From: Flavobacteriales bacterium
GTDB taxonomy: Bacteria > Bacteroidota > Bacteroidia > Flavobacteriales_D > Sanyastnellaceae
Length of the DNA: 64,000 nucleotides
Assembly: GCA_019694805.1 (NCBI GenBank)
Contig: JAIBBG010000004.1
Coordinates: forward strand, 62,001-126,000
Direction of reading: 5' to 3'
Part shown: in pieces, positions 46,544-62,400 of the stretch
How positions within the stretch are numbered: the stretch's first letter is position 1
Layout: every line of letters begins with the position of its first letter
Program-made: the position numbers and the translations under genes
The notes under the pieces: model-generated
Database searches by the model: none
The model's input: the letters and a program-made list of their open reading frames with translations, nothing else
What the model was told of the DNA's origin: nothing

Positions 46544-47488
46544 CTAATCAATATTGATTTTCTTAGAAACAGTACCGTAGTCTGTAACGATCTTCATGAA
46601 ATAACAACCGCTTTCCTCCAAATCAAAAGAGAAGAATCGAGCTTGTGGTTTCTCTGAAGTGACGAGCTGTCCAAGCGCATCAAAAACTACAACTTGTTCG
46701 ATCGATTCAGAGGCCAATACATTCACCCTTCCATCAGAAGGATTTGGAAATACTTTCACATGCGTGGAATTGTTTTCACTGACAGAAATTGGTCCAAGGC
46801 TCCATGTATATACCTGCCCATCTTCAGGCAGTGAACTGATGTTTCCGGTAAAGTTAGCTGCAGATGGTGCTGGATTAGATGAAGGCAGATCCAATGTTTG
46901 ATAATCCGTACTCGAATTGAAGATTCCTATTGTAGCAGAAAGCGAAGGTTGGTTATGAGGTCCATAACAGAATTGAATGGTGCCCGAAGTTTCGTATAGT
47001 TTTATCTGAAAATTAAGGGTATCATTTGTCGCTCCGGACAAACCACCATAAAGCCCAAACTCTACCCATTCGAAAACAAATACCCTATTTGGCTCAGAGC
47101 CTAAAGTAGCATAGTAAGCATGTCGTCCTGTTCCATCAAGATCATCCCAAAAAGGACAAAGCAAACCAGTACCGAAAGTGAGTAGCTGCACTGAATTAAG
47201 ATTGTTTGACGCAGACGGAGCACCTGTTGAGGGAAGCACATTGGGTAGCGAGACATATCCATTCGACGATGCATAAAGTTGAACATAATTTGTACCGCAA
47301 TAGCCGAATGTAAAGCCAATAGGTATTCCTGTATCAAATAAATCATCACCGTTCACCGACGCTTCGGTTCCAATCTCCTGAATGCTGTTGTAAGCTTCAG
47401 TAGAAGCGTTAAAACCATACGAAGCCGCCGTTTGTGAATATGTTTGAATTGCCCCGACGAGGAGGAAGCACGTGATCATTCTTTTCAT
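46544..47488 (-). CDS. Secreted T9SS type A protein of the LytTR regulon (small member)
   Basis: The 314-residue product has a signal peptide (MKRMITCFLLVGAIQTYSQ). Residues 20-230 form a beta-sandwich domain (YGFNASTEAYNSIQE ... GIPIGFTFGYCGTNYVQLYASSNGYVSL ... CPFWDDLDGTGRHAYYATLG ... GTIQFCYGPHNQPSLSATIGIFNS). The same domain type is recognisable at the N-terminus of the large neighbours at 53459 and 57415, by the shared pattern: early YxF, then F.F.G..Y..L..S.NG.., then a long strand with I.FQ..L.... A sorting domain (about 240-314) with VKVFPNPSDGRVNVLA ends it. A tandem operator (47540-47571) lies 51 bp upstream of the ATG. Confidence 0.83.
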   Translation of the reverse strand: MKRMITCFLLVGAIQTYSQTAASYGFNASTEAYNSIQEIGTEASVNGDDLFDTGIPIGFTFGYCGTNYVQLYASSNGYVSLPNVLPSTGAPSASNNLNSVQLLTFGTGLLCPFWDDLDGTGRHAYYATLGSEPNRVFVFEWVEFGLYGGLSGATNDTLNFQIKLYETSGTIQFCYGPHNQPSLSATIGIFNSSTDYQTLDLPSSNPAPSAANFTGNISSLPEDGQVYTWSLGPISVSENNSTHVKVFPNPSDGRVNVLASESIEQVVVFDALGQLVTSEKPQARFFSFDLEESGCYFMKIVTDYGTVSKKINID

Positions 47489-47539: not shown

Positions 47540-47571
47540 ATGAGTAACTGTATGTTTTTCTTGAGAATTCG
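47540..47571 (-). promoter_or_regulatory. Tandem LytTR-type operator, T9SS gene at 47488
   Basis: On the minus strand CGAATTCTCAA (47571-47561) and CAGTTACTCAT (47550-47540) start exactly 21 bp apart. The second repeat ends 33 bp before the core of a -7-like box TCATATTG (47510-47503). The ATG is at 47488. See the matching sites at 49543, 53349 and 57329. Confidence 0.7.
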
Positions 47572-49574: not shown

Positions 49575-49648
49575 AAAAGACGACGTCTTTCCAAATGAGA
49601 CGAGTTCATTTGTGAAGGAGCAGCGCTAATTTGCCGCAAGATTAGAAT

Positions 49649-50428
49649 ATGGTTCAATGTTTAATCATTGATGATGAAAAAAATGCCCGCGAGAATTTGG
49701 AAAATCTCGTGAGTCGACATTGTCCTGAATTGAGGGTTGTATCCATGGCCACCTCAGGGTTAGAAGGCATTCAAAAAATCAAAGAACTAAAACCAGATGC
49801 CATTTTCTTAGACGTTCACATGAACGATATTGATGGCTTTACACTGCTGAGTCGGTTGGAAGAACCCAAACCAATGGTGGTATTTGTTACTGCCTATGAG
49901 AAATATGCCTTGCGTGCGATTAAGGCGAGTGCGATAGACTACATACTCAAACCTGTGAGTATTCGTGAACTACAGAACGCTTCTCAGAAACTCGAACAGC
50001 TGCATAAACTCAAGCATGAAAACCCCGCCTTTGAACGTGATTATAGTGATGCACTCAAATTGATGATTCAAAGTTCACACGATGAGAATCCGGAACGAAT
50101 AGCATTGCCGGATCATTCTGGATACCGATTTGAAAACATGCGTGATATCGTACGTATGGAAAGTGATAGCAACTACACAACGATTTTTCTTAAGAACCAT
50201 GAGAAAGTAGTAGTGAGCAAACCGATGAAACACTTTGAAGATTTTTTAGATGAGAACACATTTATACGGATTCACAACTCACACATCATCAATATTCTTT
50301 TCCTTAAAAGTTATCTCCGTGATGAAGGTGGTATGGCGGAATTGATCGATGGCACAAGGCTTCAAATTGCTAAAAGGAGACTTCCTTTATTTTTGGATAC
50401 CATCAAAAATCGATTTATCAAACCTTGA
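49649..50428 (+). CDS. LytTR family response regulator
   Basis: The 259-residue protein has a receiver domain (residues 1-120) with Asp55 as phosphoacceptor in DAIFLDVHMND, acidic residues Asp8-Asp9, a Thr/Lys switch in VFVTAYEKYALRAIKASAIDYILKP, and a LytTR DNA-binding domain (about 155-255) with MRDIVRMESDSNYTTIFL, VVSKPMKHFEDFL, FIRIHNSHIINILFLKSY and LQIAKRRLPLFL. LytTR domains bind two direct repeats of about 9 bp. Such repeats are found upstream of this gene and of three T9SS genes nearby. It overlaps the kinase gene as TTGA (50425-50428), so the pair is a two-component system. Confidence 0.93.
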   Translation: MVQCLIIDDEKNARENLENLVSRHCPELRVVSMATSGLEGIQKIKELKPDAIFLDVHMNDIDGFTLLSRLEEPKPMVVFVTAYEKYALRAIKASAIDYILKPVSIRELQNASQKLEQLHKLKHENPAFERDYSDALKLMIQSSHDENPERIALPDHSGYRFENMRDIVRMESDSNYTTIFLKNHEKVVVSKPMKHFEDFLDENTFIRIHNSHIINILFLKSYLRDEGGMAELIDGTRLQIAKRRLPLFLDTIKNRFIKP

Positions 50429-53316
50429 GGTGTTTCGTTTACATCGTAACCGTTTGCTGCTGTCTGTGCGGCGCACTGCATGCATCTGCACAAATTACAT
50501 CCCGCGTTCCATTTCGACATTACGACACACAACAAGGACTACCCTCAACACAGGTTCAAGGCATTTTCGAAGATAGTCGCGGATACATATGGACCATTAC
50601 TGATCGTGGTGCGGCACGTTACGACGGATATACATTCAGGACATACACAACTAAACATGGGTTCTCTAGTAACAATATTTTACTCATCAATGAAGATCAT
50701 CATGGCCGCATGTGGTTCATGTGTAACAACGGAGAATATTGCTATTTAGATGGTGACACCATTCGACCATATGCGGGTAATTCAAAGATCAAAAACCTAT
50801 TGCGGGATAAGTTACCCGGCCCATTTTATTTCGATGAACAAGACACATTGTGGATTACAACTTTTTCCGGTATTCAACTTTTTAAATGTTTTGGTGATAG
50901 TGTGAGTGAGTTTAAACCTGCTGTTTCTGGATCACAAACACCCACCTACTACCTGCGCCGTGTTGGGGAAAAACTCATTACTCTTCAAGTTGGTGAAATC
51001 ACACACGATAACAAAATTTCAACCACGGATAATATTTCCTATTTGTTGGATGTTGCAGGTGAATGTAAGCTGGCGTGCAGTGTGCAGGTAGCTGAAAATC
51101 GCTGGGCTGTTGCTGGTCCTGGGGGTTTTGTTGTCTTTGATGAAGCAGGCAATCTTAAAGCCTATTTCGAATCATCGCCTTATATTTTCTCCACCCTTGA
51201 ACATGATCGAAGCGGAAACCTATGGCTGACTAATAGCAATGGAGCATTTCGCTTGAAAAATTACAACAACGGACCAGGAGATGCCGATGTTTTTTTTGAA
51301 GGTCATTTTATTACTTCGGTACTCCAAGATCATTTGGGAAATTATTGGTTTGGAGATCGTGACAACGGGTTATTTTTTGTGCCATCATTGGATATTGAAG
51401 TTTTTTCTACAGGTACTTCTGGTAAACAAGATAAAATCATTTCTGTAAAGGAACACAAAGGCAAATTATATTACAGTGACGCATCAGGGCAAATTTATTT
51501 GGTGCAAGAGAAGCGTGCCATCAAGCTCACTGAAAATCCGGTACCGAGCGGCGTATCGCTGGACTTCACTTCAACACAAAACGACAAATTCATCACTGGA
51601 AATAAACCCTTTTTACTTGATCCGAAAAAAGGAACCTACAAGCTCCTTGATGATCAGGCGGTGATCCGAAAGAGTTTGTTACTTCATCATGGCGACTGTG
51701 TTTTCGGTTTATCAGATGGCATTGCCTTTTTGGATGTAAATGAAAAATGGCAACGGGTTGAAAAAACACAATTTGGAGAAAGATGCAATAGCTTGTTTGA
51801 AGATACGGCGGGTATTCTCTGGATAGGCACTAACACTGGTCTCTACAAATATGATGGTACGGCTTTTCAGGCCATTGACCCGGTAAATGAAAAAAAACCT
51901 CGTGTAGCTGATATCTGCGAATGGAATGGCTACTTGGTTTGCTGCACGAGAGCTTCAGGGCTCATTTTCTATAAAGACGGCAAAACATTTTCAATCAAAG
52001 AAACTGATGGATTACTTTCTGATATGACAGATTGTGTTGTAACCGACGGAAATTCGTTGTGGGTTGGAACTGCTTCGGGTATACAACACATCATCGTACG
52101 TGATCTGGAAAAAACAGAGATAGCCACATTTGTCATCAACGATCAAAAAGGTCTTCCATCCAATGAAGTGAATGACATCTTATATTACGAAGGAAAACTT
52201 CTGGTTGCCACCAATGATGGATATTGTGTGATTGACCCAGAATCTGAGGCATTACGCGGAAGAACCACTCAGACCTTCATCACCGACCTTATGGTAAATG
52301 GAATCGTGCAATCCGCTCATGACAGCGTATTCCATTGGAATGAAAACAACATACGCATACACTTCCAGAGTTTGTATTTCCGCACAGCGGAAAAAACAAC
52401 CTATCGGTATAAGCTGTTGGGTTTCTTTGACTATTGGATAGAAACCAATATGCCGAGTGCTGATTTCCCGGTTTTACCGGCAGGTAGATACGACTTTATT
52501 GTACAAGCAAGGAATGAAGATGGAATTTGGGGTGAAGGCGCATCCACGACTTTTATCATACTGCCGCATTATTCTCAAACATGGTGGTTTCGAACTGTTC
52601 TGGCCATGATATTGATAATATCCATCTACTTGATTTTTTATTTTGTTTATCAGAACAAAAAAGCCAAGTTGGTGAATAGGGCAAAGATGAGTGAGCTACG
52701 GCAACAAGCATTGAATGCGAATATGAATCCGCACTTTATCTTCAATGCGTTGGGAAGCATACAACATTTCATCAATGGAGGAAAGTCGATTGAAGCGAAT
52801 GAGTATTTAGCTGATTTTTCGCGTCTCATTCGGATGAATTTAGAGACCAATCAAGAATCCCTTGTTTCCCTGGATGAAGAATTGGAGCGCTTGAGTTTGT
52901 ATCTAAAACTAGAACACCTACGGTTTACTGATAAGTTGGAATACGAAATCATCAAAAAAGACAACTTGAACACCTTTGATCTTGAAATTCCTCCGATGCT
53001 TTTGCAACCATATGTTGAAAATGCCCTATTACATGGCATTCTGCCGTCGGGTCGCCCAGGAAAACTCACGATAAGTATTTATGCAAAAGACTCGGACTAT
53101 TATTGTATAGATATCACTGACAATGGCATTGGTTTAACCGCTTCAATCAAAACTGTTCCTGAAGGGCATAAATCACTCGCTTTAAAAATGAACCAGGAGC
53201 GTTTGGCAATACTCGAGGCACAAACAGGATTGCGACATCGTGCTGAGATTACGGACCTCAGCATGGCTGGTAATTCTGAATCGGGAACCCGTGTTTCTAT
53301 TATTCTTCCTGTTTAA
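50425..53316 (+). CDS. Sensor histidine kinase, beta-propeller plus Y_Y_Y plus LytS-type kinase
   Basis: The 963-residue protein starts at TTG 50425, overlapping the regulator stop. It has a signal peptide (1-23), a periplasmic region of about 600 residues with repeated propeller motifs (GIFEDSRGYIWTITDRGAARYDG, GLFEDTAGILWIGTNTGLYKYDG type), a Y_Y_Y domain (about 650-715), one membrane helix (about 722-745) and a LytS-type kinase domain (PF06580) with NPHFIFNALGSIQHF (His about 770), LxRxxLxxN-type helices and a HATPase end (DITDNGIGL, GTRVSIILPV). The large propeller is likely to bind an extracellular ligand, perhaps a glycan, as in other Bacteroidota sensors; the ligand is unknown. It pairs with the LytTR regulator. 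Confidence 0.92.
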   Translation: MRCFVYIVTVCCCLCGALHASAQITSRVPFRHYDTQQGLPSTQVQGIFEDSRGYIWTITDRGAARYDGYTFRTYTTKHGFSSNNILLINEDHHGRMWFMCNNGEYCYLDGDTIRPYAGNSKIKNLLRDKLPGPFYFDEQDTLWITTFSGIQLFKCFGDSVSEFKPAVSGSQTPTYYLRRVGEKLITLQVGEITHDNKISTTDNISYLLDVAGECKLACSVQVAENRWAVAGPGGFVVFDEAGNLKAYFESSPYIFSTLEHDRSGNLWLTNSNGAFRLKNYNNGPGDADVFFEGHFITSVLQDHLGNYWFGDRDNGLFFVPSLDIEVFSTGTSGKQDKIISVKEHKGKLYYSDASGQIYLVQEKRAIKLTENPVPSGVSLDFTSTQNDKFITGNKPFLLDPKKGTYKLLDDQAVIRKSLLLHHGDCVFGLSDGIAFLDVNEKWQRVEKTQFGERCNSLFEDTAGILWIGTNTGLYKYDGTAFQAIDPVNEKKPRVADICEWNGYLVCCTRASGLIFYKDGKTFSIKETDGLLSDMTDCVVTDGNSLWVGTASGIQHIIVRDLEKTEIATFVINDQKGLPSNEVNDILYYEGKLLVATNDGYCVIDPESEALRGRTTQTFITDLMVNGIVQSAHDSVFHWNENNIRIHFQSLYFRTAEKTTYRYKLLGFFDYWIETNMPSADFPVLPAGRYDFIVQARNEDGIWGEGASTTFIILPHYSQTWWFRTVLAMILIISIYLIFYFVYQNKKAKLVNRAKMSELRQQALNANMNPHFIFNALGSIQHFINGGKSIEANEYLADFSRLIRMNLETNQESLVSLDEELERLSLYLKLEHLRFTDKLEYEIIKKDNLNTFDLEIPPMLLQPYVENALLHGILPSGRPGKLTISIYAKDSDYYCIDITDNGIGLTASIKTVPEGHKSLALKMNQERLAILEAQTGLRHRAEITDLSMAGNSESGTRVSIILPV

Positions 53317-53380: not shown

Positions 53381-53458
53381 TTGGCACTTACCAGAACGAT
53401 CTCAACGCTCATATTTGTTGAACCTTTTACTACCAAGTATTTAAACACATCCAAGCAG

Positions 53459-56400
53459 ATGAAAAAAATTTTACAAATCACACTTACAGTTTTGGTCACC
53501 ATGTTTGCTCATGTTCTACAGGCCCAAACACCACTGGAATACACTTATACAGGCGCAGGTTTAACCGCATATCTGCCGCTGTCCAATGCCACAACTTTGA
53601 TCAGCGGAGTCTTCGATGATCAAAATTTTACCAATATCACCATACCAGCTATCACATTTGGAGGTATTCAACAAACTGAAATTACCATTAGTGCCAATGG
53701 GTGGGTTGCATTCGGGAATGCAAATACTGTTACATATAACTCACCACTTGTGGCAACGATGAATGGCACATCTGGGTTGATTGTTCCTTTTGGTCGTGAT
53801 TTGCAAAATGCTTCAAGTGCATCATCGTTGAGATATCAAATTGATGGACAGGTTACGACCATAGAATGGCTTGAGATCAAAAGATTTGGCTCTACCAACG
53901 AGAACATCAGTTTTCAATTGGTATTGGACGGAGCCGAGAACATCATCAGAACGAACTATCTTTTCACCACGGTTGCATCAACGAATGGTCACCCCCAAGT
54001 GGGAATGCGCACTGGAGGTGGTATTCCAGCAACAGGAATGTACGACGCAAGAAAAGTAGCTACTGGTGGATCATGGCTCAATTCTACCTCAGCCAATTCC
54101 GCGCAAGATTTTTGTGTACTCACATCAGATGAGCCCAATGGCTATCCCAATGAAATGTTTATGGAATGGAATGGTGGAGCTGGTGGTTGTATGGATATTT
54201 CTGCCTGCAACTATGATGTGAACGCGGAGTTTGACAATGGATCATGCGACTATTGTAGTTGCAATACTTGTGGTTGTACTCAAGAAGGTTCATGTAACTT
54301 CAATCCCAATGCAAACTATGATGATGGTTCATGTTATACTTCCGTAGAAGTGGCTATCATGGGCGACGAAACTCCGTGTGTTGGTTTAGAATCTGTTCTT
54401 ATTGCAGTTATTGCTAATGGCAGTGGGCCATATGCCATCATGTGGAATGATGGCAGCACAGCAAGTACGACAACGTTTACTCCACAAAACACCGAAACAG
54501 TTACTTATACCCTCAATGTTGAAGATGCGAATGGTTGTATGGGTTCGGCATCCATTACAATGACTGGCTTTGAGTGCATATGGGGATGTCTTGATCCTCT
54601 CGCATGTAACTACAACGCTCAAGCCAATCAAGATGATTTTTGTGATTACAGCTGCATAGGCTGCACAGATCCTGATGCCATGAATTACAGTGAAACCGCC
54701 ACCATAGACAATGGCGGATGTTATTACGAAGGAATTGGAAACACATGCGCGAACCCGATTGCGTTGGATTGTACAGTAGGGTATTATGAAAACATGACCG
54801 TTGGAGTAGCTAACGACAATGCCACATCTGGAGCAACACTTTGCGGTGGTGTTTCTAACGGCGGACAACGTTGGTATGTTTATACAGCCGCGTTCTCAAG
54901 CGAAATCACAGTAAGCACGATCAATTCATCGACCAATTTCGACACCTATCTCAAAGTATTTACAGGCACTTGTGGTGATTTGACTTGTGTTATTCAAAAT
55001 GATGATGTACCAGGTACAGGATTTCAGTCACAGGTTGTCTTCAATGCCGAGGAAGGCACAACTTACCTGATTCGAGTTGGAGGTTACGCTATTTCCAATG
55101 GTAGTTTCGGCTTAACATTCGAATGTGGTGGTGGATGCCTTGACCCGGAAGCATGTAACTATGACGTTGATGCCCCATTCGATGATGGATCATGCACATA
55201 CGGCGCCGATTGCTACGGTTGCACTGATGAGCTCGCTGTTAACTATGATCCTATCGCAGTTTATAACCAAGGCTGTCAATACAATCCGGATATTTTGGTA
55301 TTCCATGACATGAATGGCGATGGTGTACACAATTTTGGAGAGCCGGGTTTATCCAATTGGCCAATAGATATTCCGGCCATGAATACAACGATATATACTG
55401 ATGCAACCGGACATATTTCAGTCAATCTTCCAGCATCATCTTTCCAAATTAACCTGATCAACAACACCTCAAATTGGATCAGCTCAACAATAGATCAGGC
55501 ATTCATAGATATTCCTACGAATATGTCTGTTGAATTCGGTCTCATTCCGGCAACTGGCGAAACTTTCTTTGTTGCTGGTCCATACGATGGGTTCTGGGAA
55601 ATCATTCATTGTACGAATGGATATGAGGCTGGTGTAACGATCAACAATACAGGCAGCGCACCGTTGAATGGCACATTGACCATGACATGCAATTCTGACT
55701 TTACACCAGAAGAAGATGCGTATGGTACTGTACCGCCTGATCAAGTTGCCGCTGGATTTGCACAATGGAACATCGTCGATTATCTTGCCGGTAGTAATAA
55801 TCTATTCTCCATGCACATTGATGGTCCTGGCGTTGAAAACATAGGAACGACTGAGTATTTCAATTTCAATCTCGTACTTGTTGACGCTGATGGAAATGAG
55901 ATTTACAATGAATCTTGGCAAACAACACCAATGATCGCGTGTTCATACGATCCCAATGATCTCACTGCAACTCCAGAAGGGCTTTATGAGCCGCACTTCA
56001 TTCTTCCTGGGCAACGTATTCAATACCGTGTAAGATTCCAGAATACAGGGAACCTATATGCAGAAGACATTACCATCATGGATCAATTAGATATCAATGT
56101 ATTTGATATTTCTACATTCCAGCCGCTTTATTCTTCTGCCAGCATGGTTGCATGTCTGCATGATGATGGTATGGTTGATTTCATTTTCAACGATATCTAT
56201 TTACCAGATTCTACAAGCGACGAAGAGGGATCGCATGGTTTTGTCGTATATCAAGTTGAAGCTCGTGAAGACTTGACCCCCAATACTGTTCTCACCAATC
56301 AGGCATCGATTTTCTTCGAACAAAACCCTGCCATCATCACCAATGAGGTATATCATACCATTTTCGACTGTAACTCATTCAGTGGAATTACCGGTGATGT

Positions 56401-57259
56401 AATGGCGTGTGAAGGCGAAGACATGAGCTTGGATGCTACGCAAGATTATGTAGAGACATACACATGGTTTGTGGACAATGTTATGAGCACTGAGCCCAGT
56501 GTGACACTTGCCGGTCTCACTGCTGGAGATCATTTGGTAAATGTCACTACTGCGAATCCCCTTTGTGAAGCAACACACGAAGTCATTGTAACAGTAAACA
56601 CGAACCCTTCTATTGATGCTGGTGGTTCGGCGGAGATATGCGAAGGTGAGTCCGTGACGCTCATGGCAATCTCAGATGCTGAGGTTACCTGGTCCAATGG
56701 TTCATCAAATGGAACTGAGATTTTCCCTTCAAGTTCCACCATTCTCACGGCCACAGCTACGAACGAATTTGGATGTCAGTCAGAAGACCATCTCGAGATA
56801 GAGGTGTTCGATCTTCCTTCTGCATTGATTAGTCAGGAAGGAAATATCTTGACGGCAGTTGATGGTGCATCATGGCAATGGTTCTATGACAACAATCCAG
56901 TAAATGGAGCCACTTCTCAAAGCTTTACAACCATTGGCGATGGCCAATACTATTGTGTCATTACAAGTGCTAATGGTTGTGACGTGAACAGTGAAACACT
57001 CAACGTGACTCATGTTGGAAGTGTTGAAAATGCGGTGATCCGGGTTTATCCTAATCCAGTGCAGGACAAAACGCAAGTCACTCTGCCAGCGGGTGTATAT
57101 CATTTGATCATCACTGATGCCTTGGGCCAATTGGTGCTCTCTCGAGACAATTGCAGTGGTGTCATTGTTCTAGATCGGAATAATTTCAGTGCCGGCGCTT
57201 ATATGCTGAGTATTTATGGTGAGAACGTATTCGAAAACATCAAATTGATCATGGAATAA
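53459..57259 (+). CDS. Large secreted T9SS type A protein with DDGSC repeats (regulon member)
   Basis: The 1266-residue product (ATG 53459; the upstream in-frame extension belongs to the leader) has a signal peptide (MKKILQITLTVLVTMFAHVLQAQ). Approximate layout: N-terminal beta-sandwich 25-240, cysteine-rich ACNY...DDGSC repeats 243-285, an Ig-like domain 290-370, more repeats 376-425, a PPC-like domain 427-555 (RWYVYTA ... GTTYLIRVGGY), repeats 558-605, an SdrD-B-like unit (DMNGDGVHNFGEPG) 610-720, a further domain, DUF7619-type (CSYDPNDLTATPEG ... NPAIITNEVYHTIFDC) 827-970, Ig-like domains to about 1185, and a sorting domain 1195-1266. No enzyme motif is seen, so an adhesin or matrix protein is likely. 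It is a paralog of the next gene. Confidence 0.82.
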   Translation: MKKILQITLTVLVTMFAHVLQAQTPLEYTYTGAGLTAYLPLSNATTLISGVFDDQNFTNITIPAITFGGIQQTEITISANGWVAFGNANTVTYNSPLVATMNGTSGLIVPFGRDLQNASSASSLRYQIDGQVTTIEWLEIKRFGSTNENISFQLVLDGAENIIRTNYLFTTVASTNGHPQVGMRTGGGIPATGMYDARKVATGGSWLNSTSANSAQDFCVLTSDEPNGYPNEMFMEWNGGAGGCMDISACNYDVNAEFDNGSCDYCSCNTCGCTQEGSCNFNPNANYDDGSCYTSVEVAIMGDETPCVGLESVLIAVIANGSGPYAIMWNDGSTASTTTFTPQNTETVTYTLNVEDANGCMGSASITMTGFECIWGCLDPLACNYNAQANQDDFCDYSCIGCTDPDAMNYSETATIDNGGCYYEGIGNTCANPIALDCTVGYYENMTVGVANDNATSGATLCGGVSNGGQRWYVYTAAFSSEITVSTINSSTNFDTYLKVFTGTCGDLTCVIQNDDVPGTGFQSQVVFNAEEGTTYLIRVGGYAISNGSFGLTFECGGGCLDPEACNYDVDAPFDDGSCTYGADCYGCTDELAVNYDPIAVYNQGCQYNPDILVFHDMNGDGVHNFGEPGLSNWPIDIPAMNTTIYTDATGHISVNLPASSFQINLINNTSNWISSTIDQAFIDIPTNMSVEFGLIPATGETFFVAGPYDGFWEIIHCTNGYEAGVTINNTGSAPLNGTLTMTCNSDFTPEEDAYGTVPPDQVAAGFAQWNIVDYLAGSNNLFSMHIDGPGVENIGTTEYFNFNLVLVDADGNEIYNESWQTTPMIACSYDPNDLTATPEGLYEPHFILPGQRIQYRVRFQNTGNLYAEDITIMDQLDINVFDISTFQPLYSSASMVACLHDDGMVDFIFNDIYLPDSTSDEEGSHGFVVYQVEAREDLTPNTVLTNQASIFFEQNPAIITNEVYHTIFDCNSFSGITGDVMACEGEDMSLDATQDYVETYTWFVDNVMSTEPSVTLAGLTAGDHLVNVTTANPLCEATHEVIVTVNTNPSIDAGGSAEICEGESVTLMAISDAEVTWSNGSSNGTEIFPSSSTILTATATNEFGCQSEDHLEIEVFDLPSALISQEGNILTAVDGASWQWFYDNNPVNGATSQSFTTIGDGQYYCVITSANGCDVNSETLNVTHVGSVENAVIRVYPNPVQDKTQVTLPAGVYHLIITDALGQLVLSRDNCSGVIVLDRNNFSAGAYMLSIYGENVFENIKLIME

Positions 57260-57282
57260 AAATATTGCTGATCAAAAAAAAC

Positions 57283-57315
57283 AAACCCGTCGGAAGGATC
57301 CGGCGGGTTTTTTTT
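57283..57315 (+). terminator. Terminator of the large T9SS gene
   Basis: An 11-bp stem AAACCCGTCGG / CCGGCGGGTTT (one G-T pair) with a 6-base loop, followed by a T-run to 57315, 23 bp after the stop. The next LytTR-type site starts 14 bp later. Confidence 0.88.
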
Positions 57316-57328
57316 ACCCCAAAAGTTT

Positions 57329-57360
57329 CGAATTCTCAATAAAAAAGCACGATTACTCAA
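57329..57360 (+). promoter_or_regulatory. Tandem LytTR-type operator, giant T9SS gene at 57415
   Basis: CGAATTCTCAA (57329-57339) and CGATTACTCAA (57350-57360) start exactly 21 bp apart. The second ends 32 bp before TTTA in a TACATTTA -7-like box (57389-57396). The ATG is at 57415. Confidence 0.72.
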
Positions 57361-57414
57361 AATCAGCGATGAAAATGATGTTTCAATTTACATTTATAGT
57401 TAGAATTTAGTGTC

Positions 57415-60400
57415 ATGGCTTGCCTCATACCAAATAGAATACTACCACTCGTCGGATGGCTTCTCATCGCGACATTATTCGGAAATGCCCAGGGGGTTTC
57501 ATCCTACAGTTTTCAACTCACGAATGAAACGTATACGCCCATTTCAAGCCCTCTCAATTTTCAAAGCGGAGTTGATCTCAATACGAACGGCATTTCAGCC
57601 AATATTCCACTCAACGGCACCTTTTATTTTAATGGAGCCCATTATCAATCTCTTCATATTTCCAACAATGGCTTCATTGTACTTGGAGACCAACCTCCAG
57701 CAGCAAGCAATGTCACGCCACTTACTCAAACAAGTGTTTCAGGGGTTATCACCAATGGATATGAAGCAGCAATCAGTGCATTTGGTTGTAATCTCGTTAT
57801 GTCCAACATGCCGGGAAGTGCCCCATCGATTGACTATACCAATATCAATGACGAATTTGTTGTTCAATTTACCGATCTGGCGCGTTTTGGCCAAGGAAGC
57901 ACTGAAAAAATCAGTTTTCAAATTCGGCTAAATTTAAGTACCTACGAAATCCAATATGTTTATGGTGATTGCCTTGCAGGCTCATCAACTTCCACACAAC
58001 CACAAGTTGGCTTAAGAGGCTGTAGTTATCGCGACTATCAAACATTGAGTGGCAATCTTGCCAATGCCTGGAGTAATCCGAATATAAATCTTGCCACCGG
58101 CGGAACTGCCCCTCCACTTACCTTGAGATATAGTTCTTCGAATCCATCATCATCACCAAGCTCGGGACTCACTTATACTTTTGTTCCACCTTCGCAGTTG
58201 GCTGAACCAGTTTATGCTGCCATTCCGTTTTATGAAAATTTCGAAGCTACACCATGGTTAGATGGTTTGGCGCCACAGCAACTGCCATCCATGGCAAGTG
58301 TAAGAACTTGGCCAGTGTATGGTGATCGTTCATTCAGAATACAAGGCACCACTGCGGCCAGCGTTGTATCAGGATGGTCATCCACAAATGGAGTTTATCA
58401 GGATCAGCCTTCCCAATCAGCATGTTTCAATTCATACGATGTAACAAGCGGAACAAGAGGATACATGGATTTTTACGTAGATCTTTCTTCAGGCAATCAA
58501 ACACTTTCTTTCGACTATATCAATGCTTCAGGAATTGACTATCTCGAAGTTTTTTTATCTGCAGATGGTGGAGAAACATTTGGAAGCTCTCTTGCGACCT
58601 ATGGCGTTGTGGCCAACTGGACCAATCACATGGTGGATTTAGGGACACCACTATCCAACTCTTGTGTTGTGCGCATTCAATGCGTGGGTGATTTTGGAAC
58701 CTCCTATTCCAATATCGGAATCGATAATGTGGTTATCGGCGAACCATGCATTGGACAACCCAACGCGGGTACAGCGGCCACCATATTGGCTGATTCAAAT
58801 TGCCCGGGCTCAGATATCACTTTATCTCTGGGAGGTGGATACAGCACGAATGGTGTTATGTTTCAATGGCATGAATCCACTACTGGTGAAATCAATTCTT
58901 TCACTGCTATTGAAAATTCATCTTCTCCGGTATTCAACACCATTGCTGCAGCAGGGCAACATTATTACATAGGTATTGTAACGTGTGCATCAAGCGGATT
59001 AGCAGATTCTACAGAAGTTCTTAGCATCATGATTGACCCTATAGAAGTACCCGTCATTACACCTTCCGTCAATAGTTTGTGTGCGGGTGAGACCGTTCAA
59101 GTGTCAGCAAGCAATACCGACATGAGCAACATGACTTATACCTGGTCAGTAAGCAGCGGTGATGCAACAATAACCACCACAAGCTCAAATACTGCAGACA
59201 TTCTATTGCTTCAACCTTCTACTATTCAAGTGATCGCAACAAACAACATAAACGGATGTGAAAGCACCTCGACTTCTTTGATTGATGTCGTACAAACACC
59301 AATACCTACGGTGTTATTCGATTCCGAAATCTGCATGAATCAATCAACGACCATCATAAACACATCAGAAGCGTTTACCTGTATTCCATACACAAGCATT
59401 CAGGCACCACCAGATGCAAATGTGCTGATCGAGAATGGCGTATTGAATGTACCACTCACCATTGGCCTTACAGATGATGGCATTTGGAGCTCCATACCAC
59501 TCGGCTTTGAATTCAATTATTTTGGAGAAGTCCGCACTGAATGTGCTGTAGCCACCAACGGTAATCTGCAGTTCTATGACAACACCAACACACTAAGCTC
59601 TGTATTTACTCTCCCAGCATCTTTACCAAGTATGCTTGCACCCAATAACTTTATTGGAATTTGTTTAACTGATTTAAATCCTGGTATTGGCGGCAGCATC
59701 AAATACTGGACGCTGGGCGAGGCCCCAAACAGAATCTTTGTACTCGAATATCGGGATATACCATTTTACACGAACGTACAAACCTATTTCACTGGTCAGT
59801 GTCATATTTACGAGTCTGGTGGTTTCGAAATTCACATTGGAGAAATCTCCAACACCACACAACTTGTTTCCATTGCTTGCGAAAACCAGCAAGGTACCCA
59901 AGGAGATATTGCAGACAATTGCTTGACCGGTGAAATGGACTACTGGTTATCTCGTTCTGGTGGCTTGCCTCCACTAACACCGCAAGCTTGGCGTTTTGAA
60001 ATGGGAAGTGCCGAATTAGGTTACACCTGGACGCCGCAAGAATATTTCGCAAGTAATTCCTCAGGTGTTGGGTTTGATGAGTTAAACACTATGGTATTTC
60101 AAGCTCCTGGTGTTTATGAAATTTCACTTCAATTTACGGATCTGCCTTCTGGTTGCACAACTACAGGATCATGGATGATCACTGTTGATGGATCATGTTA
60201 TTTGGGCTGCACTGATGTAGGCGCATGTAATTATAATCCCAGCGCAACAGAAGATGATGGCAGTTGTGACTTCTCATGTTTCGGATGCACTGATCCATTG
60301 GCGTGCAATTATGCTCCTTCAAGCACTGTAGACGATGGAACCTGTCTCTATGGCAATGGATGTAACGGATGCATGGACCCCTTGGCCGACAATTACAATC

Positions 60401-62400
60401 CACTCGTTTTGTTTGATGACGGTTCCTGTCAATATCATGGTAGCGTCATTGTTTTTCAAGATTTAAATGCCAATGGAATTAAGGACTCTGGTGAGCCCGG
60501 ATTGCCAAACTGGTCTGTCTTTTTCTCACAGCTATCCATTACCATGTTCAGCGACATGAATGGAGTTATTACTTTCGACCTTCTCAATGGATCGTATTAT
60601 GTAGACTTAAACTTAAATGTTGGTTGGTTCAATACGACCCCTACATCAGGTGTTGCCAACGTTCCTGGTACATTCTACTTCGGTGTTCAGGATGAGAACT
60701 TACTGAGTTATGATGTGAATCCGGGAATGACTTCTGTATTCTCATGCATTTCAGGAGTGAATCCGGGTGTTTGCATCTATAATTCAGGTGGAATCTCATT
60801 TACAGCCGACTTAAGTCTCACTTGTGATAACATTCTATTACCACAATTGCTCCCATCGCTCCCTTTGCAATCTCCCACATCAGTAGATTTCGGAACGGCC
60901 ACGTGGAGCGATATGGCCATACCCAGCGGAGGTTCATCAATCCTATTGTTCACAAGCATTGATTCGCCCGGTATTGAGTATTTAGGCAATACTTTCAGTT
61001 TTACTTTTAACCTAACACTCACAGATCCAGATGGCATTATTTTCTACGATGAAACCTGGACCATCACAAGAGACTTAACTTGTGCTTACGATCCTAATGA
61101 AATTTCTGCAGATCCCGTAGGTTATTATGATCCTCATTTCATCCATGCGGGACAAAGAATTTATTATCTCATCAAATATCAAAATACCGGAAACGCTCCT
61201 GCGCAGGATATTTTGATCATGGATCAACTTGATCCGGCTGTTTTCAATCTGAATACATTTCAACCGATTTCCTATTCATTTAATACAGTGGCTTGTCTTC
61301 ACGATGATGGTATTGTCGACTTTATCATGAATGACATCAACTTACCAGATTCAACCTGGGATGAACCCGGTTCACATGGTTATGTATTGTATCGTGTTGA
61401 TGCGAAAAGCGATTTGGTTCCAAATACCGTGCTTCCAAATCACGCCGCTATTTTCTTCGATCAAAATCCAGCTATTATCACCAATGAAGTATTCCACACC
61501 ATCTTTGATTGTTCGTCTTTTTCTGGAATACAAGGAGATCTCCACGCCTGTTTTGGTCAATCGATTTCTCTGGATGCATCGCAAGAATATGTTGAGTCTT
61601 ATCAATGGACAATTGACGAAAATATTTTCACCACACCTTCTATTGAAATTTCATCACTCGCTGCCGGAGAACATTCGGTTGGACTAATAACTGCAAATCC
61701 ACTTTGCGATAAATCACATGAGGCCACTATCACGATCAGCGAACTTCCGTTGATCAATGCTGGTGTTGATACCGCAATTTGTGCAGGAAACTCCCTTTTA
61801 TTGATGGCAACAAGTAACGCCAATATAGAATGGTCCAATGGCTTAGCAAACGGCAGCGAGTTTTTTCCATTGAATTCAGTAACGCTTACCGCTATGGCAA
61901 CAGATGAAGAAGGCTGTAGCACTGTAGATGAGCTCGATATCAATGTCATGGATCTACCAGCGACATCATTGACACAAAATGGCAATATGATTACTGCCGA
62001 TGATGGTATAGCGTGGCAGTGGTTCTACAATGGAGCCGCAATGCCCGACGGAGATTCACAAACCATCAATACGATAGGTGGTGGCACATACTACTGCATC
62101 ATTGAAGGAGAAGGAGGATGTGAATCCATCAGTGAAAGTATTTCCGTAGTAAATATTGAAGAGCAAACCTCTGCACAATTATTCATATATCCGAATCCAA
62201 TGATCCATGATGCAGTGATTATACTGCCGGGGGGCACATATCAAATCATCATGACCGATGTTGCGGGTCGAATAGTTCTTGATCAAAAAAACTGTTCGGG
62301 GGTGTTTCATTTGGAACGCAGCCGACTTTCATCAGGAGCATTCCACTTGACTGCAACCAACCAGAATTGCACATATACGAGCACGCTTATCGTTAATTAA
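57415..62400 (+). CDS. Giant secreted T9SS type A protein (regulon member)
   Basis: The 1661-residue protein has a signal peptide (about 1-26). Approximate layout: N-terminal beta-sandwich 27-265, a MAM/choice-of-anchor J-like domain 272-445, Ig-like domains 450-640, a second copy of the N-terminal sandwich type 640-870, a PKD-like stretch 880-925, three ACNY...DDGSC-type repeats 931-1008, an SdrD-B-like unit (DLNANGIKDSGEPG) from 1010, a DUF7619-type domain 1223-1365, Ig-like domains to about 1560, and a sorting domain about 1585-1661. From about residue 930 on it follows the protein at 53459 module by module, at roughly 60 percent identity in the best stretches by eye. Function is probably adhesion or matrix, inferred only. 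Confidence 0.82.
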   Translation: MACLIPNRILPLVGWLLIATLFGNAQGVSSYSFQLTNETYTPISSPLNFQSGVDLNTNGISANIPLNGTFYFNGAHYQSLHISNNGFIVLGDQPPAASNVTPLTQTSVSGVITNGYEAAISAFGCNLVMSNMPGSAPSIDYTNINDEFVVQFTDLARFGQGSTEKISFQIRLNLSTYEIQYVYGDCLAGSSTSTQPQVGLRGCSYRDYQTLSGNLANAWSNPNINLATGGTAPPLTLRYSSSNPSSSPSSGLTYTFVPPSQLAEPVYAAIPFYENFEATPWLDGLAPQQLPSMASVRTWPVYGDRSFRIQGTTAASVVSGWSSTNGVYQDQPSQSACFNSYDVTSGTRGYMDFYVDLSSGNQTLSFDYINASGIDYLEVFLSADGGETFGSSLATYGVVANWTNHMVDLGTPLSNSCVVRIQCVGDFGTSYSNIGIDNVVIGEPCIGQPNAGTAATILADSNCPGSDITLSLGGGYSTNGVMFQWHESTTGEINSFTAIENSSSPVFNTIAAAGQHYYIGIVTCASSGLADSTEVLSIMIDPIEVPVITPSVNSLCAGETVQVSASNTDMSNMTYTWSVSSGDATITTTSSNTADILLLQPSTIQVIATNNINGCESTSTSLIDVVQTPIPTVLFDSEICMNQSTTIINTSEAFTCIPYTSIQAPPDANVLIENGVLNVPLTIGLTDDGIWSSIPLGFEFNYFGEVRTECAVATNGNLQFYDNTNTLSSVFTLPASLPSMLAPNNFIGICLTDLNPGIGGSIKYWTLGEAPNRIFVLEYRDIPFYTNVQTYFTGQCHIYESGGFEIHIGEISNTTQLVSIACENQQGTQGDIADNCLTGEMDYWLSRSGGLPPLTPQAWRFEMGSAELGYTWTPQEYFASNSSGVGFDELNTMVFQAPGVYEISLQFTDLPSGCTTTGSWMITVDGSCYLGCTDVGACNYNPSATEDDGSCDFSCFGCTDPLACNYAPSSTVDDGTCLYGNGCNGCMDPLADNYNPLVLFDDGSCQYHGSVIVFQDLNANGIKDSGEPGLPNWSVFFSQLSITMFSDMNGVITFDLLNGSYYVDLNLNVGWFNTTPTSGVANVPGTFYFGVQDENLLSYDVNPGMTSVFSCISGVNPGVCIYNSGGISFTADLSLTCDNILLPQLLPSLPLQSPTSVDFGTATWSDMAIPSGGSSILLFTSIDSPGIEYLGNTFSFTFNLTLTDPDGIIFYDETWTITRDLTCAYDPNEISADPVGYYDPHFIHAGQRIYYLIKYQNTGNAPAQDILIMDQLDPAVFNLNTFQPISYSFNTVACLHDDGIVDFIMNDINLPDSTWDEPGSHGYVLYRVDAKSDLVPNTVLPNHAAIFFDQNPAIITNEVFHTIFDCSSFSGIQGDLHACFGQSISLDASQEYVESYQWTIDENIFTTPSIEISSLAAGEHSVGLITANPLCDKSHEATITISELPLINAGVDTAICAGNSLLLMATSNANIEWSNGLANGSEFFPLNSVTLTAMATDEEGCSTVDELDINVMDLPATSLTQNGNMITADDGIAWQWFYNGAAMPDGDSQTINTIGGGTYYCIIEGEGGCESISESISVVNIEEQTSAQLFIYPNPMIHDAVIILPGGTYQIIMTDVAGRIVLDQKNCSGVFHLERSRLSSGAFHLTATNQNCTYTSTLIVN

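Follow-up and report, generated by a model that had tools for sequence, protein, structure and literature searches.

A LytTR response regulator (P0001) and a LytS-type sensor kinase (P0002) encoded by adjoining genes of a Flavobacteriales bacterium (assembly GCA_019694805.1, contig JAIBBG010000004.1, positions 62,001 to 126,000 of the forward strand; this 64,000-nucleotide stretch is termed the window) constitute a LytS/LytTR system with a BT4663-like double-propeller sensor which, judging from sequence, probably switches its own operon and neighbouring genes for surface proteins of the type IX secretion system (T9SS) through matching DNA boxes. When upstream regions were compared, a direct repeat of the form CGAATTCTCAA-N10-CGAATTCTCAA, with a period of 21 bp, was detected ahead of the regulator gene and of the genes for two T9SS surface proteins, P0003 and P0004 (Table 1). 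In the entire host genome (3.85 Mb, 99% complete), this pattern matched at three places with up to 3 mismatches, all at the P0001/P0002 locus, while the reversed pattern matched at none; the chance expectation for the three window boxes was 0.00 in 100 shuffles of the window. Because matching boxes precede both the pair and the surface-protein genes, the pair probably controls surface display. A preceding annotation of this DNA (the sequence-only reading) had proposed adjacent targets for the pair without giving support, which the three direct repeats now supply.

Table 1. Positions in the window of the regulator/kinase pair, its predicted targets, and associated DNA elements.
Feature	Position	Strand	Description or evidence
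LytTR response regulator P0001, 259 aa	49649..50428	+	Response_reg + LytTR; motifs
LytS-type sensor kinase P0002, 963 aa, single open frame	50425..53316	+	Pfam, motifs, AlphaFold2, Foldseek
T9SS surface protein P0003, Cys-rich repeats, DUF7619, sorting domain	53456..57259	+	Pfam, NCBIfam
T9SS surface protein P0004, P0003 paralogue, DUF7619	57415..62400	+	Pfam, NCBIfam, alignment
Small T9SS protein P0007, probable weaker target	46544..47488	-	Pfam, NCBIfam, alignment
LytTR-type box of regulator gene, CAAATTCTCAT-N10-CGAATTCTCAA	49543..49574	+	Pattern search, shuffles
LytTR-type box of P0003, CGAATTCTAAA-N10-CGAATTCTCAA	53349..53380	+	Pattern search, shuffles
LytTR-type box of P0004, CGAATTCTCAA-N10-CGATTACTCAA	57329..57360	+	Pattern search, shuffles
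Weaker box upstream of P0007, CGAATTCTCAA-N10-CAGTTACTCAT	47540..47571	-	One half exact, other 6/11
-7-like element of regulator promoter, TTCATTTG	49605..49612	+	62 bases from box start
-7-like element of P0003 promoter, CATATTTG	53410..53417	+	61 bases from box start
-7-like element of P0004 promoter, TACATTTA	57389..57396	+	60 bases from box start
Terminator-like hairpin and T tail between P0003 and P0004	57283..57310	+	12 pairs, pattern match

Layout of the boxes and promoters

The Bacteroidota -7 consensus is TAnnTTTG. An element of this kind was located 59–62 bases from the start of the box in 7 of the 16 promoters scanned, namely four in the window and three regulator promoters of genus-mates, using a pattern that was picked after the sequences had been seen. 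A scan for E. coli-type promoters was uninformative (26 found versus 35.4 in shuffles). According to excerpts of two publications, LytTR sites consist of two repeats of 9–11 nt with a spacer of 11–13 nt (PMC4847170), and in autoregulated LytTR operons such repeats directly precede the -35 element (PMC6193735). The window boxes follow this layout, being paired direct repeats upstream of predicted target promoters.

Domain organisation and predicted fold of the pair

Both Pfam matches of P0001, to Response_reg (E 2.1e-22) and LytTR (E 1.5e-11), exceeded the cut-offs, and the motifs IIDDE, FLDVHM, and ILKP were found, in agreement with the separate LytTR regulator postulated in the sequence-only reading. 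The kinase gene starts with TTG and shares its first four bases with the 3' end of the regulator gene. Its product, whose periplasmic domain covers about residues 23–716, is ordered as a signal-peptide-like N-terminal helix, two beta-propellers, Y_Y_Y, one membrane helix, His_kinase, and an ATPase domain, with matches to Reg_prop (E 1.3e-19), Y_Y_Y (residues 654–712, E 5e-12), and His_kinase (PF06580, residues 760–838, E 3.3e-19). HATPase_c scored below cut-off (22.2 versus 26.4 bits), yet the N and G boxes are present. The motif MNPHFIFN begins at residue 767 and retains the phospho-accepting histidine (His770), PYVENALLHG and DNGIG follow, and most positions of MNPHFIFN and of the ATP-binding motifs were invariant in an alignment of nine relatives. 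Neither a receiver nor a DNA-binding domain was found by Pfam within the 963 residues of P0002.

An AlphaFold2 model of P0002 (53 sequences, mean predicted local distance difference test score 81.8) was compared with the PDB by Foldseek, and the top match was the periplasmic domain of BT4663 (4a2l, E 1.8e-39, 18% identity), the entry title of which refers to a heparin and heparan sulphate sensing hybrid two-component system. BT3049 ranked next, and PorZ far lower (E 6.7e-18). The domains, the MNPHFIFN motif, and the BT4663-like model together bear out the earlier description of P0002 as a LytS-type propeller kinase. Scores on equivalog models fell short for P0002 as PorZ (36.4 bits versus a cut-off of 260) and for P0001 as PorX (33.6 versus 300); with the BtsR model, P0001 obtained 126.7 bits against a cut-off of 246. 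The pair is thus best described as a LytS/LytTR member with a sensor of the hybrid-system type, and is not itself a hybrid system. In five full-length P0002 orthologues, identity was 43–47% over the propeller region and 55–61% over the kinase part, a comparison that is uninformative on the ligand.

In the proposed mechanism, a ligand or an envelope state would be sensed by the periplasmic propellers, and the signal would pass via Y_Y_Y and the single membrane helix into the kinase. Phosphate would then move from His770 to the receiver aspartate of P0001, whose LytTR domain is predicted to bind the direct repeat of 21-bp period that adjoins the promoter on its upstream side. Bound P0001 would activate, rather than repress, its own operon (autoregulation) and would likewise activate P0003 and P0004, and probably P0007.

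Predicted targets

The predicted targets carry the hallmarks of T9SS cargo, consistent with the neighbours named in the sequence-only reading: DUF7619 together with a sorting domain occurs in P0003 and P0004. The sorting domains of P0003 and P0007 scored above the PF18962 and TIGR04183 cut-offs, and that of P0004 scored below the Pfam cut-off (20.6 versus 27 bits) and above that of NCBIfam TIGR04183 (24.6 versus 23). P0003 and P0004 are 45% identical over 710 aligned positions, and the N-terminal part of P0007 weakly resembles that of P0004 (27%, E 2e-9). The mechanically called open reading frame of P0003 extends from 53240; the ATG at 53456 is the likely start. Since a terminator-like hairpin splits P0003 from P0004 (17 sites fitting the hairpin pattern were found versus 10.0 in shuffles), P0004 probably requires its own promoter, and its own box lies downstream of the hairpin (57329). 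These tandem paralogues (53456–62400) bear repeated Cys-rich GCxDxxACNY...DDGSC units. P0005 is presumably glyS, a name that goes beyond its Pfam domains.

Host genome context

No SusC, SusD, or glycosidase family was found among the 38 window open reading frames scanned, several of which match no family, in line with the earlier statement that such genes are missing here. Genome-wide, two SusD models recovered one and the same gene, on a different contig from the window, while at least 150 T9SS sorting-domain loci were counted (150 scored, 247 candidates), which corresponds to a density of no less than one per 26 kb. Against this background of a single SusD hit and 150 or more cargo loci, the lack of SusC/SusD beside the pair is expected and carries little weight; as an argument for a non-nutrient signal it was rejected as weak. 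A further propeller kinase/LytTR pair of the host, paralogous to the first (L023, G000:C69:1-19000), has between 6704 and 6917 a 21-bp repeat of its own, read on the other strand (CCGAACATCAA/CCGAAGATCAA), and a T9SS cargo gene downstream.

Conservation of the pair and the box

Among 114 family genomes searched, close P0002 orthologues were identified in all but one of the seven genus-mates and, outside the genus, in G038. Identity was 46–49% for the five full-length copies and 48 and 55% for two partial ones; the next relatives within the order (399 genomes) were 28–30% identical. In G032, G033, and G034, the orthologous regulator (69–71% identity) is likewise preceded by a zero-mismatch box, and G037 has an identical 31-mer at the end of a contig. 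In G038, a box with 2 mismatches precedes the likely start of the regulator and a weak one precedes a downstream cargo gene. The cargo gene adjoining the pair in G034 encodes a protein 51% identical to P0003 over 1032 aa, though on the opposite side of the pair. Downstream of the kinase, three genus-mates (L013, L014, L015) carry genes that by eye resemble P-loop ATPases, those of L013 and L015 differing in kind from those of L014; this region is possibly an insertion hot spot.

At up to 3 mismatches, the box pattern gave 50 listed places in 33 of the 114 genomes, and the reversed control gave 13; no more than 2 mismatches were present in 20 of the 50 pattern matches, a breakdown that covers the pattern alone. 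Twenty stretches around listed places were examined. In eight (L178, L180, L183, L184, L187, L192, L194, L196), the box lies within 350 bp ahead of a same-strand frame with a signal-like start; in the remainder, boxes were inside genes, at contig ends, or without such a gene. In G036, a zero-mismatch box stands ahead of a frame that is 3046 aa or longer and opens with a signal-like segment. Two other boxes of this genome (L188 2484, 2 mismatches; L189 6089, 3 mismatches) precede T9SS genes but face the opposite way; box direction may be irrelevant, or these may be chance matches. The boxed gene of G046 lies near a LytTR regulator whose kinase frame spans just 370 aa. In L183, L184, and L192 (G046, G082), the boxed large frames end in a dockerin-like tail (e.g., DINSDGTVNAGDLLEFLGAFG) and matched none of the sorting-domain profiles built here; the tail is possibly another surface-sorting signal. 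In G027 (L182, 3242–4423), a zero-mismatch box persists next to a remnant of 366 aa that matches the kinase profile; no gene starts after the box on its strand.

Genes near related pairs

Related loci were surveyed in two sets. The first comprised the best 80 of at least 574 relatives from genomes of named species, with up to 10 kb taken on each side, one being left out for want of a labelled kinase (n = 79); the second, held-out set comprised 80 loci from other genomes of the class, from which two duplicates at ≥90% identity were removed (n = 78). Loci at contig ends lose neighbours. A LytTR gene adjoins the kinase in 63/79 and 68/78 loci, respectively, so the two-piece kinase and LytTR design is ordinary. 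The contrast with hybrid systems that the sequence-only reading had treated as telling therefore loses its force, a separate LytTR partner being usual among relatives and the lack of SusC/SusD being expected in this genome.

The same reading had called for a survey of T9SS versus glycan-use genes beside orthologous pairs, and had named the proximity of most pairs to SusC/SusD or glycosidase genes as the outcome that would tell against it. The survey did not refute the reading: a profile that recovered 26/26 left-out SusDs found SusD in 0/79 and 0/78 loci, with no separate test for SusC. The 144 immediate neighbours in the first set were scanned in two halves, and neither list of 25 families holds a glycosidase or SusD family, although rarer families may be unlisted. 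Por_Secre_tail was present in 18 of these 144 (Pfam), and in the second half TonB Plug and Laminin_G_3 (concanavalin-like lectin/glucanase superfamily) occurred in two of 71 neighbours each. T9SS cargo, called by a sorting-domain profile built here, made up 32/274 genes within two genes of the pair versus 18/528 at a distance of four or more in the first set (p 8e-6), and 40/292 versus 17/459 in the second (p 6.5e-7), in tests that assume independence between genes. Within the host itself, the 12 propeller-kinase loci showed 11/45 near versus 7/88 far (p 0.01). This replicated enrichment suggests that surface display is a common output of propeller pairs.

Boxes shared between pairs and nearby cargo were sought in the same loci, excluding any gene whose upstream region is also that of the pair. 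A first test, which included the discovery locus, gave a shared 21-bp box in 7/31 nearby cargos versus 1/775 other genes, and the survey loci alone gave 3/24 versus 1/682 (p 1.4e-4). One nearby cargo matched at 20-bp spacing (1/527 tests at other spacings). Repeats of 21 bp ahead of the pairs themselves numbered 7/60, whereas other spacings averaged 1.04 and reached 3 at most; in the held-out set, the count was 4/68, against 1.30 and 3 (p 0.04, weak). Half-sites seemingly vary between lineages. In L061, L065, L067, and L073 (records Kordia, Polaribacter, Kordia zhangzhouensis, and Algicola), the pair and a neighbouring gene share a half-site close to TTYAGAAA with a 21-bp period; the neighbour is T9SS cargo in the first three, and in L073 its frame is broken by a run of N. 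No case of such sharing with cargo occurred in the held-out set. A few Flavobacteriaceae may be taken as a lead for shared boxes beyond the P0001/P0002 family.

Discussion

Several observations weigh against control of the surface-protein genes by P0001. In held-out loci, the shared box occurred in 0/36 cargos versus 2/665 other genes and so was not replicated; a class-wide box shared by pair and cargo is not claimed for this reason, and the test may lack power because half-sites seem lineage-specific. The genus-mate G031 (88% complete) yielded no kinase, no regulator at E 1e-50, and no box, yet keeps glyS and the adjoining cargo gene, whose product matches its G034 counterpart at 74% identity over 1464 aa; the presence of the cargo is therefore independent of the system. 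A kinase fragment at a contig start in G035 is accompanied by neither a box nor a regulator in that assembly. In G032, G033, G034, and G037, the sole match with at most 2 mismatches is a box of the regulator type (G033 has one further match, with 3 mismatches, within a gene), and no box was found ahead of the glyS-side cargo gene in G032, G034, and G037. With such matches in these four genomes being of the regulator type only, box-based control of cargo is best supported in the host genome. Finally, a LytTR gene adjoins 8 of the 12 propeller-kinase loci of the host by a profile of our own, and the seven LytTR proteins other than P0001 might bind the box.

The last point underlies an alternative in which the boxes are real LytTR sites occupied mainly by a paralogue, P0001 not being the controller of the cargo. 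Similar boxes before surface-protein genes near other LytTR regulators in G001, G003, and G046 (other genera, without an orthologous kinase at E 1e-100) are consistent with this, but the P0001/P0002 pair is where the genome has all three of its strong sites, one of them at the regulator's own promoter, and in G031 neither pair nor box was found, which makes a paralogue distinctly unlikely. That the T9SS genes are chance neighbours in a cargo-rich genome is highly improbable: the density of sorting-domain loci would allow it, but cargo is commoner close to the pair than far from it in both survey sets, and three boxes are not expected by chance.

Two further alternatives concern the signal, for which the sequence-only reading had suggested an attachment cue or a matrix component in place of a nutrient glycan. 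The propellers could sense a nutrient glycan, like the hybrid systems found at polysaccharide utilisation loci, with the surface proteins binding or presenting that polymer. In favour of this, the nearest solved fold is that of BT4663, a heparin sensor, followed by the hybrid-system sensor BT3049, and lectin/glucanase-superfamily and TonB Plug proteins do occur among the surveyed neighbours; the missing SusD in related loci and the lack of glycosidase families in the scanned window frames and among the listed neighbour families tell against it, and 18% identity to BT4663 is uninformative on the ligand, leaving a glycan signal somewhat doubtful. Alternatively, the kinase could monitor T9SS cargo or its export in a feedback loop on surface display. 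Sensor and cargo genes adjoin and have matching boxes, and a loose precedent is provided by the C-terminal domain protein PorA, proposed in the portion of PMC7712824 consulted to relay a surface signal to PorXY-SigP; that paper also reports a failure to detect direct interaction of PorA with PorY, and G031 retains cargo with no kinase found, so that feedback appears unlikely.

The P0001/P0002 pair shares with the LytS/LytTR systems of E. coli (YpdA/YpdB, BtsS/BtsR) a His_kinase and ATPase sensor, a receiver-LytTR regulator, and direct repeats of 21-bp period at promoters, and differs from them in its large periplasmic double-propeller sensor and in having T9SS surface proteins as boxed neighbours. 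Hybrid two-component systems are linked to polysaccharide utilisation loci, and glycan foraging is the role for which propeller kinases are best known. The hybrid systems BT4663 and BT3049 have a similar periplasmic double propeller and Y_Y_Y fold; unlike them, the pair has separate kinase and regulator genes and a LytTR DNA-binding domain, with no SusC/SusD or glycosidase found nearby. PorXY-SigP of Porphyromonas gingivalis is likewise a two-component system tied to T9SS function, but according to the available text of PMC7712824 it works together with a sigma factor on genes for T9SS components, whereas here the boxes directly precede cargo genes.

No link of LytTR regulators to T9SS cargo promoters was found in searches of an open-access library; in excerpts of the open-access papers naming both LytTR and type IX secretion, LytTR appears just in gene lists, count tables, and one remark on virulence. 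What is new is the compact wiring from a propeller sensor to T9SS surface proteins, the sensor type itself being common. A genome-unique box ties one propeller pair to named surface proteins, and because of this specific link binding, regulon, and signal are directly testable. More tentatively, and with the odds against it, the pair may represent a large class of dedicated propeller kinase/LytTR surface-display switches in Bacteroidota, in which each pair would autoregulate through its own 21-bp box and also drive one or a few adjacent T9SS proteins and the sensor would respond to an attachment cue or to exported cargo. If so, a sensor fold of glycan foraging would have been rewired to the cell surface.

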